DNA of 38,796 bases from Candidatus Roizmanbacteria bacterium CG02_land_8_20_14_3_00_36_15 (lineage in GTDB: Bacteria > Patescibacteriota > Microgenomatia > UBA1406 > GWC2-37-13), in the NCBI GenBank assembly GCA_002780795.1, contig PEUF01000033.1, positions 1-38,796 of the forward strand, read 5' to 3'. The position numbers and the translations under genes are program-made. The notes below the pieces were generated by a model. It did no database searches, had not been told where the DNA came from, and saw only the letters and a list, made by a program, of their open reading frames with translations. Positions 11,587 to 36,295 of the stretch are shown in pieces. The first letter of the stretch is position 1. Each line of letters starts with the position of its first letter.

Positions 11587-11603
11587 CAGGAATTTATAAA
11601 GAG

Positions 11604-11648
11604 TTCATAAAGTTTATAAAGTCCGTAAAGTCCATAAAGTCTGTAAAT
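11604..11648. repeat. 9-base tandem repeat array between divergent promoters
   Basis: Five contiguous 9-base units of the form TYYRTAAAG (TTCATAAAG, TTTATAAAG, TCCGTAAAG, TCCATAAAG, TCTGTAAAT). The array lies between the promoters of the flippase gene and the GT2 at 11692. A related array lies at 33365-33447. Confidence 0.8.
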
Positions 11649-11678
11649 TTTTTTAGAATTTATTAAGTTCTTGGATGA

Positions 11679-12386: not shown

Positions 12387-12734
12387 ATGAAAATAACTTT
12401 GATTCAAATTGGTTTAGCATTAATTTCACTATTTATTATTGGTGACCGTATTCAGCGTTATTTAAGAAGGGAAATTTCCCAATCGATTTTTAAATTGATT
12501 TCCTTTTTGACCGTCTGGACCGTAGTTTTAATAATCAGCCTGTTTCCGACAACGGTTTACTACATATCAAGGAAGTTAGGTTTTGGCGAAACCCTTAATC
12601 CGTTAATCTTTGCCGGATTTATCATCGTTTTTTTACTGATATTTAAAATCATCAGCATTATTGAAGAATTAGAAAGGCATATCACTAAAATCGTCAGACA
12701 GGAAGCTTTAAAAAACATTAAAAAACGAAGATGA
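12387..12734 (+). CDS. DUF2304 family membrane protein
   Basis: 115 residues. The topology is TM-RIQRYLRREIS-TM-TM followed by a basic amphipathic tail, which fits DUF2304, a family usually found next to DPM1-like GT2 genes. It may anchor or assist the preceding enzyme. A 19-base near-perfect palindrome (AATTTATTCTGAATAAATT) ends just before the ATG, and no Shine-Dalgarno is present. Its TGA stop overlaps the next ATG by 4 bases. Confidence 0.75.
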   Translation: MKITLIQIGLALISLFIIGDRIQRYLRREISQSIFKLISFLTVWTVVLIISLFPTTVYYISRKLGFGETLNPLIFAGFIIVFLLIFKIISIIEELERHITKIVRQEALKNIKKRR

Positions 12735-13816
12735 GGACTCCCCTGGTGGCAGTTTTGGTTTTATGCACCAATGAAAAAAAATTTCTTAAAGGCGTGGTTG
12801 ATTCCCTGCTTAAACAGACCTACAACAACTTGAGAATATACATTTTAGATAATAACTCAGAGGATGGATCAAAAGAAATAATCTCAAATCTCTCGCCCAG
12901 GGGGCGATCGTCCTTTGGACGAAAATATCAAACCTCAAATCTTACGAGTATCTATTTCAAAAGCAACCTAGGGTACGCAAAGGCTAATAATATTGGTTTA
13001 CGAAGAGCTTTTGGGGATGGGGCTGATCTTTGTCTTGTTCTCAACTGTGATACGGTTTTAAAGAAAGATTGTGTTGAGGAGTTAGTTGAGTCTTATTTGG
13101 AGAAAAAAAAGGAAGAAATAAAAGTCGGTCTGATTCAGCCGGTAATTTTGTTGGCTAACGATAGGAAAAAGATCAACGGTGTCGGCAACGCCATCCATTA
13201 CCTGGGTTTTGGTTACTGTCAGGACTATTTAAAAAGCTATAAAAAACAGAGCGTTGATAAAGAAATTTATTCTGTATCCGGCGCGGCAATGTTGATGACA
13301 CGAGAATATTTTCGCCAAGTTAGTGGTTTTGATGAGGAATTTTTTATGACTGGTGAAGATCAAGACATATCATGGAGAGGGTTACTTTATGGCTATCGCC
13401 ACTTTCTGTCTCAGGGAGCGCAGATTTATCATTATTACCAGTTTGGCCGCCATAAATTAAATAAATACCGGGAAGAAAAAAACCGCCTGATGATGCTTTT
13501 AAAAAATTATTCGGTAAAATCTTTGATTTTACTTTCGCCAATGTTAGTTGTTAACGAACTGGCGCTGATTTTATATAGCCTGTTTGAGGGATGGTTTTTT
13601 TTGAAGATAAAAACTTATTGGGCGATTTTAGTAAATTCAAAAACTATTCTAAAAAATCGAAAAATAATTCAAGCAAAAAGAGTTGTGAATGATAAAATTT
13701 TATTCTCAAGATTCAAAGCCGTAATTCACTTTAATCCTATTAATAACTTTATTATTCAAAACCTGGCAAACCCAGTATATTGGTTTTATTACCATCTAGT
13801 TTATATTTTTATATAA
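12731..13816 (+). CDS. GT2 family glycosyltransferase carrying repeat element B
   Basis: A 361-residue WbbL/rhamnosyltransferase-like GT2. It has VLVLCTNEKKFLKGVV, DNNSEDGSKE, VLNCDTVL as the metal site, and SGFDEEFFMTGEDQDISWRG. Between DGSKEIIS and the next strand (TSIYFKSNLGYAKANN) sits an extra segment, residues about 54-71, SPRGRSSFGRK plus YQTSN. It is encoded by a double-hairpin element also found in the GT39 gene. The insert falls on the loop after strand 2 of the GT-A fold, where extra length is tolerated. Its 3' end overlaps the convergent methyltransferase gene by 16 bases. Confidence 0.8.
   Translation: MRTPLVAVLVLCTNEKKFLKGVVDSLLKQTYNNLRIYILDNNSEDGSKEIISNLSPRGRSSFGRKYQTSNLTSIYFKSNLGYAKANNIGLRRAFGDGADLCLVLNCDTVLKKDCVEELVESYLEKKKEEIKVGLIQPVILLANDRKKINGVGNAIHYLGFGYCQDYLKSYKKQSVDKEIYSVSGAAMLMTREYFRQVSGFDEEFFMTGEDQDISWRGLLYGYRHFLSQGAQIYHYYQFGRHKLNKYREEKNRLMMLLKNYSVKSLILLSPMLVVNELALILYSLFEGWFFLKIKTYWAILVNSKTILKNRKIIQAKRVVNDKILFSRFKAVIHFNPINNFIIQNLANPVYWFYYHLVYIFI
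12891..12941. repeat. Element B copy 1 (double hairpin, in frame)
   Basis: A 51-base stretch with two adjacent hairpins, CGCCC/GGGCG (12894-12906) and CGTCC-TTT-GGACG (12909-12921), then a tail of 7-base CTCAAAT-like units. It differs from 35049-35099 at 3 of 51 positions. Both copies are read in the same frame. Confidence 0.85.
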
Positions 13817-33355: not shown

Positions 33356-33364
33356 ATAATATAG

Positions 33365-33447
33365 TTTATAAAGTTGGTAAAGTTTTTAAAGTCCTTAAAG
33401 TATTTCTCCTTACGAACTTTACAACTTTACGGACTTGATGAACTTTT
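33365..33447. repeat. 9-base repeat arms in inverted orientation between ssb and rpsR
   Basis: The left arm is TTTATAAAG, TTGGTAAAG, TTTTTAAAG, TCCTTAAAG. After about 16 bases the right arm has the same kind of units on the other strand (TCCGTAAAG, TTGTAAAG). The whole could form a long imperfect hairpin and shares its unit with 11604-11648. Confidence 0.8.
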
Positions 33448-34252: not shown

Positions 34253-34311
34253 GAGCTAATAATTATTAGTGATTAGTTAGTGGTTACTGGTAAATTCTTA
34301 ACTTTTGAAAG

Positions 34312-34317
34312 TATAAT
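34312..34317 (+). promoter_or_regulatory. TATAAT box, leaderless start of the GT39-like gene
   Basis: TATAAT ends 7 bases before the ATG at 34325. It lies downstream of the alternative GTG at 34280, so the longer form is unlikely. Confidence 0.6.
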
Positions 34318-34324
34318 ATTTGAT

Positions 34325-36295
34325 ATGGCGAAAATCAATAGCAATAGTAGTAATTTTAAATTTAAAATTTTAAATTTAAAATTCCCGATATTTATATTTT
34401 TCTTTTTTCTTCTTACTTACACGCGCTTTATAAATATCGGTTGGGGATTACCCTATCCGATGCATCCGGATGAACGGAATATAGCGGTCGCAGTTCAAAA
34501 CTTGAACTGCGAAGTTCAAAGTTCAAAGTTCAAAGTTCAAAGTTGTTTTAATCCTCATTTTTATGCTTATGGACAGTTTCCTTTGTATTTAGGACATGGA
34601 CTTGTTTGGTTGTTGAAATTTTTTAATGGAAGGTTAGGAACACCGATTAGTTTTCTGGAAGCAACGATTAGTTTGAGGACAATTTCGGCAATAGCATCGG
34701 TCATAAACGCATTGATGTTGATTAAAATTATTCAACTAATCTCCAATCAAGGTCAAAATTTAAATTCTAAAAGAAAATTGATTTCTAATCACACATTATT
34801 AATTACGTCCCTAATCCTTATTTTTTCTCCTTATTTCATTCAGTTTTCCCATTTTGGCACAACAGAATCACTTTTAATGTTGTTTTATAGTTTAATAATA
34901 TATTTATGTTTGCTTTTTTTTCAAAAAATACTAAATACTAAATACTTTATACTTTATACATCTTTCATCAGCGGTTTGGCGATAGCGACGAAAGTGTCAT
35001 CAGCAGTTTTCATAGGAATACCTCTAATAGCAATAATAAATTCAAAATTCTCGCCCAAGGGGCGATCGTCCTTTGGACGAAAATCTCAAAACTCAAATCG
35101 ACATCTTAAAGCTCAAAACCATTTTACTTCTAATTTTTTACTTGTATTTTTGACTTTTACCTTTTTACTTTCGACTTTTATTTTTACAATCCTCTTTTCT
35201 CCTCATAATCTTATTAATTGGCAGGAGTTTATTGGCGCCTTAAGATATGAATCAGAAGTAGCCACCGGGGCGATAAAAGTTTTTTATACACGACAGTTTG
35301 AAGGAACAGTCCCCTATTGGTTTCAGTTGACTAAAATTTTTCCTTATGCGTTGGGATGGCCGGTTTTCGTCTTAGGAATATTAGCTTTTTCAGGATTAAG
35401 TTGGAGAAGCCGAGAAATCAATCTATTAAGATTGGCTTTTTTATTCTACTTTATTCCTAATGGTTTGCTCTATGCTAAATGGACAAGATTTATGGCACCA
35501 ATTTTTCCTTTAATATTAATATTTTCTATATTTTTTTTATTAAAATTGTATGATTGGTTTTATAATTATATTCGGATAAGTTCAAAATTCAAAATTCAAA
35601 ATTCAAAATTACAAGTCAAAATTAAAAATTTTAAAACTTTTGACTTTTTACCTGTATTTTTGACTTTTACCTTTTTACTTTTAACTTTTATCAGTATTTT
35701 ACCTGGTATTTCTTATCTTTCTGTTTATCAAAAACTTGATGTTCGTTTTCAGGCATCGAAATGGATTTATGAGAATATTCCCGATGGAAGCTATATTTTA
35801 TCTGAGACCGCAAATGTTGTTGATATTCCAACAGCAAATCCAAAATCCAAAATGCAAAATCCAAATCAAGTTCAAAATTCAAATTACAAAATAATTTCGT
35901 TTAATTTTTATGATTTGGATGAAAACCCGCAACTACAAGAAGAATTAAAAGAGCATTTAGCGAAAGTTGACTATATTTTTGTACCGTCAAGAAGAATTTT
36001 CGCAAATCACTACTGTGGTTCCTTGTCATCCCGACCGACCCCGACATTACGTCAGGGGAGTGGGGGGATCTTTGGTAACAAATGCCAAATGTTAAAAAAA
36101 GAATATCCTTTACTTAATGATTATTACGAGAAATTATTTTCAGGAAAGCTAGGATTTGAAAAAGTAGCGGAATTTTCCAGCGGTCTTAATGATGAGCAGG
36201 CGGAGGAAACGTGGAGCGTGTTTGACCACCTTATTATAAGAATATTCAAACGTAATTCAACAAATCCAAAATCCAAACAAACTTCAAATTTCTAA
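34325..36295 (+). CDS. GT39/PMT-like GT-C glycosyltransferase rich in repeat inserts
   Basis: 656 residues. The first membrane helix is followed by LPYPMHPDERNIAVAV, the acidic first-loop motif of ArnT/PMT-type enzymes. About ten further helices and a C-terminal extracytoplasmic region follow. It probably moves a sugar from a polyprenyl phosphate to a protein or glycan. Repeat-derived segments include 34352-34383, 34512-34544, element B at 35049-35099, 35581-35690, 35836-35890, a GC hairpin at 36016-36081 and the stop region. Removing the last hairpin joins IFANHY with CQMLKKEYP cleanly, and removing the second joins QNLNC with FNPHFYAYG. Confidence 0.78.
   Translation: MAKINSNSSNFKFKILNLKFPIFIFFFFLLTYTRFINIGWGLPYPMHPDERNIAVAVQNLNCEVQSSKFKVQSCFNPHFYAYGQFPLYLGHGLVWLLKFFNGRLGTPISFLEATISLRTISAIASVINALMLIKIIQLISNQGQNLNSKRKLISNHTLLITSLILIFSPYFIQFSHFGTTESLLMLFYSLIIYLCLLFFQKILNTKYFILYTSFISGLAIATKVSSAVFIGIPLIAIINSKFSPKGRSSFGRKSQNSNRHLKAQNHFTSNFLLVFLTFTFLLSTFIFTILFSPHNLINWQEFIGALRYESEVATGAIKVFYTRQFEGTVPYWFQLTKIFPYALGWPVFVLGILAFSGLSWRSREINLLRLAFLFYFIPNGLLYAKWTRFMAPIFPLILIFSIFFLLKLYDWFYNYIRISSKFKIQNSKLQVKIKNFKTFDFLPVFLTFTFLLLTFISILPGISYLSVYQKLDVRFQASKWIYENIPDGSYILSETANVVDIPTANPKSKMQNPNQVQNSNYKIISFNFYDLDENPQLQEELKEHLAKVDYIFVPSRRIFANHYCGSLSSRPTPTLRQGSGGIFGNKCQMLKKEYPLLNDYYEKLFSGKLGFEKVAEFSSGLNDEQAEETWSVFDHLIIRIFKRNSTNPKSKQTSNF
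34352..34383. repeat. 7-base units at start of GT39-like gene
   Basis: AATTTTA, AATTTAA, AATTTTA, AATTTAA in exact phase. They encode FKFKILNLKF before the first helix. Confidence 0.75.
34490..34544. repeat. Hairpin plus four exact 7-base units in the first loop of the GT39-like gene
   Basis: GCAGTTCAA-AAC-TTGAACTGC (34490-34510) is a perfect stem. AAGTTCA follows four times (34512-34539). The repeat encodes VQSSKFKVQS, inserted next to the catalytic loop. Confidence 0.8.
34926..34960. repeat. 7-base units in the GT39-like gene
   Basis: AAATACT three times, then TTATACT and TTATACA, five units in exact phase. They encode ILNTKYFILYT between two membrane helices. Confidence 0.7.
35049..35099. 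repeat. Element B copy 2 (double hairpin, in frame)
   Basis: 48 of 51 bases match 12891-12941. It encodes SPKGRSSFGRK in the same frame as in the GT2 gene, and is followed by 7-base TCAAAAC-like units. Confidence 0.85.
35138..35180 (+). repeat. 43-base direct repeat, copy 1
   Basis: It matches 35648-35690 at 40 of 43 bases and encodes the helix segment VFLTFTFLLSTF. Confidence 0.8.
35581..35690 (+). repeat. 7-base array and 43-base direct repeat copy 2
   Basis: TTCAAAA four times in exact phase (35581-35608), giving FKIQNSK. AAGTCAAAA/TTTTGACTT then flank an AT-rich centre. The right arm (35648-35690) has TTTTGAC-like 7-base units and copies 35138-35180. Confidence 0.82.
35836..35890. repeat. 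7-base units in the GT39-like extracytoplasmic region
   Basis: AATCCAA, AATCCAA, AATGCAA, AATCCAA and then AATTCAA-like units encode NPKSKMQNPNQVQNSNYK. Confidence 0.7.
36016..36081. repeat. GC-rich hairpin insert (element C) in the GT39-like gene
   Basis: CCCCGAC (36039-36045) pairs with GTC-A-GGGG (36051-36058), with further C-rich and G-rich flanks. It encodes SRPTPTLRQGSGG. The GC content is far above that of the host gene. Confidence 0.7.

Follow-up and report, generated by a model that had tools for sequence, protein, structure and literature searches.

A 30-bp double hairpin in protein and RNA genes of Patescibacteriota, probably a miniature mobile element

Our analysis of a 38,796-nucleotide stretch of a Candidatus Roizmanbacteria genome (the window) and of related genomes indicates that a 30-bp sequence folding into two hairpins (Element B) is probably, at a rough probability of 0.7, a miniature non-autonomous palindromic mobile element, which has spread in this genome and across the phylum. 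The initial annotation had described one double-hairpin segment in two unrelated genes of the window, and this is borne out: at least 15 copies lie in unrelated genes. The same spread contradicts two other explanations, namely that the segment is general in the GT2 and GT39 families or that the two copies reflect gene conversion between homologous regions.

The two window copies and the 30-bp unit

The window represents contig C28 of the host genome (1.06 Mb, 59 contigs, 35% GC). Positions 12891-12941 match positions 35049-35099 at 48 of 51 bases, as had been claimed, and the hairpins CGCCC/GGGCG and CGTCC/GGACG with their CGATCG junction match the earlier description exactly. Both copies are read on the coding strand in one common frame, as SPRGRSSFGRK (ORF 12731-13816) and SPKGRSSFGRK (ORF 34280-36295), the former positioned after DGSKEIIS, as the initial annotation had it, and between two conserved blocks. 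A relaxed core pattern gave four matches in the window (i.e., two sites, each on both strands) versus 0.03 expected. The assignment of the hosts to glycosyltransferase families is firm for GT2 (PF00535, E 5e-21) but weak for "GT39" (PMT_2, E 2.5e-4, under the Pfam cut-off). The element as a whole occurs far more widely than in glycosyltransferases, also in 23S rRNA and tmRNA. The features of the window are as follows:

12731..13816, + strand: host gene of copy 1, glycosyltransferase family 2, 361 aa (PF00535, E 5.2e-21); frame open through the element
12877..12892, + strand: left heptamer flank of copy 1, AATCTC AAATCTC; a neighbour, outside the mobile unit
12893..12922, + strand: copy 1 of the double hairpin within the GT2, TCGCCCAGGGGGCGATCGTCCTTTGGACGA (30 bp), read as S-P-R-G-R-S-S-F-G-R; its length follows from empty sites and the outer-pair test
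12893..12907, + strand: hairpin 1 of copy 1, 6-bp stem and 3-nt loop (predicted fold and covariation)
12908..12922, + strand: hairpin 2 of copy 1, 6-bp stem and 3-nt loop (predicted fold and covariation)
12923..12941, + strand: right heptamer flank of copy 1, AAATATC AAACCTC AAATC; a neighbour, outside the unit
34280..36295, + strand: host ORF of copy 2, membrane protein, 671 aa, with a weak PMT_2/GT39-like match (PF13231, E 2.5e-4, under the cut-off) and also several heptamer arrays
35035..35050, + strand: left heptamer flank of copy 2; a neighbour, outside the unit
35051..35080, + strand: double-hairpin element copy 2, 30 bp, TCGCCCAAGGGGCGATCGTCCTTTGGACGA, coding S-P-K-G-R-S-S-F-G-R
35051..35065, + strand: hairpin 1 of copy 2 (predicted fold)
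35066..35080, + strand: hairpin 2 of copy 2 (predicted fold)
35081..35099, + strand: right heptamer flank of copy 2; a neighbour, outside the unit

The conserved unit consists of two hairpins placed back to back, TNNNCCANAGGNNNA directly followed by TNNNCCTNTGGNNNA, each with a 6-bp stem and a 3-nt loop. It is nearly palindromic and has the constant core CCANAGG / CCTNTGG. Among 57 copies the 28-mer has, with few exceptions, a T as its left and an A as its right neighbour; these two letters pair and, therefore, the unit comprises two 15-nt hairpins and measures 30 bp. Beyond these edges pyrimidines are preferred before the unit and purines after it. As DNA the 30-mer is predicted to fold into the two hairpins at -11.2 kcal/mol, which none of 200 shuffled sequences equalled, and as RNA at -16.6 kcal/mol. 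In approximately 0.6 Mb of the host genome that was read directly, hairpins of this type almost always occur in adjacent pairs. A role as transcription terminator is unlikely, as neither strand has a run of T after the hairpins.

The structure is strongly supported by covariation. In 65 copies (63 distinct), 98.5% of the pair cells hold standard pairs and the covariation score for two hairpins is 0.413 versus a shuffled mean of 0.105, with none of 500 shuffles as high. A single long hairpin was rejected, since its score (0.120 versus 0.114 shuffled) is no better than chance. The search patterns fixed some of the stem letters and pairing was, therefore, rechecked at positions left free. The first pattern left the third stem pair free, and of 82 copies 74 and 72 have a Watson-Crick pair there, versus shuffled means of about 25. 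A search fixing only the core left the outer four pairs unconstrained, and each of these is Watson-Crick in 25 to 34 of the 34 copies. Variation in one hairpin is independent of that in the other. Stems that are unlike yet paired are also found at orthologous sites, i.e., in an ABC-transporter leader (G031/G006), in tmRNA (L078/L190) and in 23S rRNA (L077/L181).

Quasi-palindrome template switching could also make hairpins or keep them perfect, with neither mobility nor selection on structure involved. Template switching yields paired changes in one step, and the tmRNA and 23S rRNA sites, where both stems differ yet pair, fit such a process. It leaves unexplained, however, the constant core and loop letters, the fixed length of 30 bp and the dozens of unrelated sites, and it also has to contend with the independent variation of the two hairpins. 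As a full explanation we hold it to be very improbable; template-switch repair could be the source of the covariation alone and is a possible means of stem maintenance.

Copies, host genes and empty sites

The double-hairpin pattern detected about 15 good copies on 11 contigs of the host genome, while a reversed-pattern control gave none; a core-only search (CCANAGG..AT..CCTNTGG) brought three further, decayed copies as well as one match that is probably due to chance. The element is present in 19 of 83 genomes of the order and in 21 of 380 genomes sampled from the phylum (all of ~0.4 to 2 Mb). Its presence is patchy and its copy number low (5 to 18), both points against a mobile element. Spread by viruses was rejected, as the strict pattern matches nothing in the viral contigs searched, and the sole exact match among general genome contigs, in a Halieaceae sequence (L015), is attributed to chance, its second half forming no hairpin.

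Comparison of filled and empty sites supports mobility. Opposite the copies in the ABC-transporter gene of G031 and in the Mur-ligase-like gene of G025, relatives show exact 30-bp gaps (site comparisons L068/L100 and L022/L163). In G076, four copies (L208-L211) sit in the loop of another repeat, and deleting exactly 30 bp from them recreates the uninterrupted repeat CATTCCCGCGAAGGCGGGAAT, which is present elsewhere in that genome. No target-site duplication was found at the filled and empty sites compared. Other empty sites show a net difference of 18 or 27 bp instead of 30 bp, which counts against the mobile reading and points to local change or loop remodelling alongside or after insertion.

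Thirteen of the 15 host-genome copies lie in ORFs, one in helix 98 of the 23S rRNA and one is intergenic. Hosts with Pfam annotation include ribosomal protein L5 (C-terminus; insert peptide SRPKGDRPLDENPK), a nucleotidyltransferase-DUF359 protein and a GHMP kinase (both between domains), a Clp-type ATPase, DsbD, an amine oxidase, a GT1 and the GT2 of the window. In relatives, the element occurs, among other genes, in CTP synthase, leucyl aminopeptidase and a ComM-type ATPase and, as judged by sequence motif, in DNA ligase and an aminotransferase. Taking all copies tested, 40 of 56 lie within ORFs of at least 100 aa.

The frames of the ORF copies are distributed 21:15:4 (p 0.004), the rare frame being the one that encodes a hydrophobic peptide, which is avoided. 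Frames through the host-genome copies are open in 93% of cases versus 58% for random 30-mers. That both window copies share a frame, as initially annotated, is correct but no rule: five copies in the host genome use this frame, eight use another (SRPxGDRPLxEK) and none the third. The frames also bear on a further explanation, in which ribosomes skip the element so that it is not translated, like the bypassing elements of yeast mitochondria. Hairpin-forming inserts inside coding genes of conserved proteins would fit this idea, but its length is divisible by three, its frames are open and its copies favour the two hydrophilic frames over the hydrophobic one, a preference that matters only if the element is translated. 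We, therefore, consider bypassing extremely improbable.

Structural RNA genes form a second class of hosts. The helix 98 copy of the host genome is located at G000:C54:11889-11916 (L014:1501-1528), and two relatives (L077, L181) carry the element at the same place with other stems. In the tmRNA genes of two related genomes it lies near the 3' part, at the same place in both (L078:680-709 and L190:609-638), with stems that are unlike but paired. In five further loci (L081, L137, L139, L186 and L200, around nt 1339) it sits in the would-be D-loop of tRNA-like 5' fragments, and a few bases further on begins an ORF that resembles a small GIY-YIG nuclease. The idea that tRNA genes are simple hosts was rejected, as deletion of the 30-mer gave no tRNA with ARAGORN; Rfam found no tRNA across these copies, with one weak overlap at L200. 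These hosts are, therefore, best termed tRNA-like only.

The conserved pairing could alternatively mean that the hairpins are kept as working RNA elements (for protein binding, mRNA stability or translation) and spread for that function. The structure is indeed conserved in transcripts of protein genes, rRNA and tmRNA, and among the non-Watson-Crick pairs on the coding strand G-U exceeds A-C (11 versus 5). This excess is, however, not significant (p 0.105), the host genes are functionally unrelated and mostly not common to different genomes, and related genomes lack the element at the same sites, so that we regard an RNA function as decidedly unlikely.

The 7-base arms that the initial annotation had linked with the hairpins turned out not to belong to the unit. 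Many copies in the host genome do have 7-base periodic flanks above background, but most copies of relatives lack such arms and the empty sites differ by the 30-mer alone. Conversely, heptamers occur without hairpin in the second host ORF of the window and in the DNA ligase loop of relatives (the L069 site). The AAANNTC heptamers are, thus, a separate type of tandem repeat that shares similar permissive places. All 13 ORF copies of the host genome have the same orientation relative to the gene. The reverse complement of the flanking heptamers contains TGA and would be selected against as a stop; the common orientation, therefore, probably belongs to the heptamers and not to the element, which is itself nearly palindromic.

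Other repeats were noted in the course of this analysis. The ORF at 34280-36295 has more heptamer arrays (TTCAAAA and AAGTTCA types) than any other gene of the window, and two mutually similar arrays of 9-base units (ATAAAGTCC type) lie near gene ends at 11589-11662 and 33359-33414. In one genus, a single DNA ligase loop (L069 and the orthologues L086, L087, L090 and L092) holds the double hairpin, a decayed remnant of it or various heptamer arrays; this loop is a site that repeatedly accepts inserts. At L083 (query nt 545-577), GATCCTGAAATAAATTCAGGATGACA is a hairpin repeat that is very abundant in the genomes of one related genus.

Possible movement and comparison with known elements

If the element is mobile, an enzyme acting in trans would recognize the hairpin shape and the constant core (CCANAGG / CCTNTGG), with either single-stranded DNA or a transcribed copy as RNA as its substrate. 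Insertion would take place with little preference in target sequence (pyrimidines before and purines after the site). Copies may then survive in genes because 30 bp correspond to ten codons with mostly open frames, and because hairpins that fold on their own would be tolerated in loops of both proteins and RNAs. A small GIY-YIG nuclease gene occurs within 300 bp of 9 out of 31 copies in four relatives, versus ~0.3 expected by a rough estimate from gene counts, but of none of the host-genome copies; this proximity is a lead, not a result. Tentatively, the element may be described as phylum-wide, defined by its structure and not its sequence, 30 bp long and neutral to frame and fold, entering protein genes, 23S rRNA, tmRNA and tRNA-like sequences and moved by a putative enzyme possibly linked to small GIY-YIG nucleases.

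A more familiar source of mobility would be a REPIN or BIME, i.e., a REP doublet moved by a resident RAYT-type Y1 tyrosine transposase. REPINs are extragenic, have longer spacers and possess a cognate RAYT flanked by the same REP (PMC3116915), features not found here; as in our element, an inverted pair of hairpins is the replicative unit, which is non-autonomous and dispersed (PMC3116915). The host genome possesses five single-copy Y1/RAYT-type transposases (L025-L029). Enzymes of the IS200/IS605 type insert single-stranded DNA without target duplication, which also counts for this reading. However, the four Y1 genes of the host genome with recognizable flanks have on both sides a different hairpin of their own and not Element B, no Y1 gene that was examined in relatives has the double hairpin at its flanks, and G025, G037 and G079 bear the element but gave no Y1 match. 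Furthermore, the flanks of 57 copies hold no unpaired GTAG tag, only the closing T...A pair and the pyrimidine-purine preference, and most copies are intragenic (13 of 15 in the host genome, 40 of 56 overall in ORFs). Mobilization by the resident Y1/RAYT genes was, therefore, rejected, and the REPIN reading in general seems unlikely. Some Y1-flanking hairpins of the host genome, e.g., CACCCCGGGGGTG, have a few dispersed copies of their own.

REPs tagged with GTAG or CGTC have stems of 8-9 bp, a tail and a tetranucleotide tag that stays unpaired (PMC3733652). Like our element they are palindromic repeats sometimes found in genes, and CGTC repeats dimerize, often as unlike units, without a dedicated transposase (PMC3733652). 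In Element B, in contrast, the CG(T)CC letters belong to a 6-bp stem, in which the outer letters pair and vary, and no unpaired CGTC occurs at one end.

The palindromic elements of Rickettsia (RPE; Ogata 2000) are long single stem-loops of 105-146 bp with terminal inverted repeats (PMC2229807). They resemble our element in that palindromes are inserted in frame into numerous unrelated protein genes, mostly of conserved proteins, as well as into RNA genes (PMC2229807). Element B shares the in-frame insertion in unrelated protein genes but not the single stem-loop of 105-146 bp: it has 30 bp, two independent hairpins and no fixed stem sequence, and belongs to another phylum. Similar, too, are the double-hairpin elements of Allomyces mitochondria and the repetitive hairpin-forming elements that sponge mitochondria contain (PMC2800124, citing Paquin 2000). 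These are mobile, consist of two small GC-rich hairpins in an AT-rich genome, lack flanking duplications, and occur in variable rRNA regions and occasionally in protein genes, as here (PMC2800124). Element B likewise has two adjacent GC-rich hairpins, and some of its filled sites differ from their empty counterparts by precisely 30 bp, with no duplication of the target. However, the mitochondrial elements are organellar, and in-frame use in proteins is the exception there and the rule here; the likeness is one of form, Element B being short and not conserved in stem sequence. Element B is, thus, a member neither of the RPE, given its size and their single stem, nor of the REPINs and tagged REPs, given that it lacks a tag and a flanking transposase and is intragenic. 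In the literature searched, to which subscription journals mostly do not belong, no description of it was found.

If our reading is correct, hardly any mobile element with a defined unit would be smaller than Element B, which would make new peptide and RNA segments in essential genes while leaving these genes unbroken. Its many copies would serve as natural insertion experiments in loops that tolerate them, in enzymes as well as in 23S rRNA and tmRNA. Protein-coding palindromes, so far mainly known from Rickettsia and Wolbachia, would then also be on record from a large bacterial phylum with small genomes, and strict covariation would allow direct tests of how such palindromes move, an old question.
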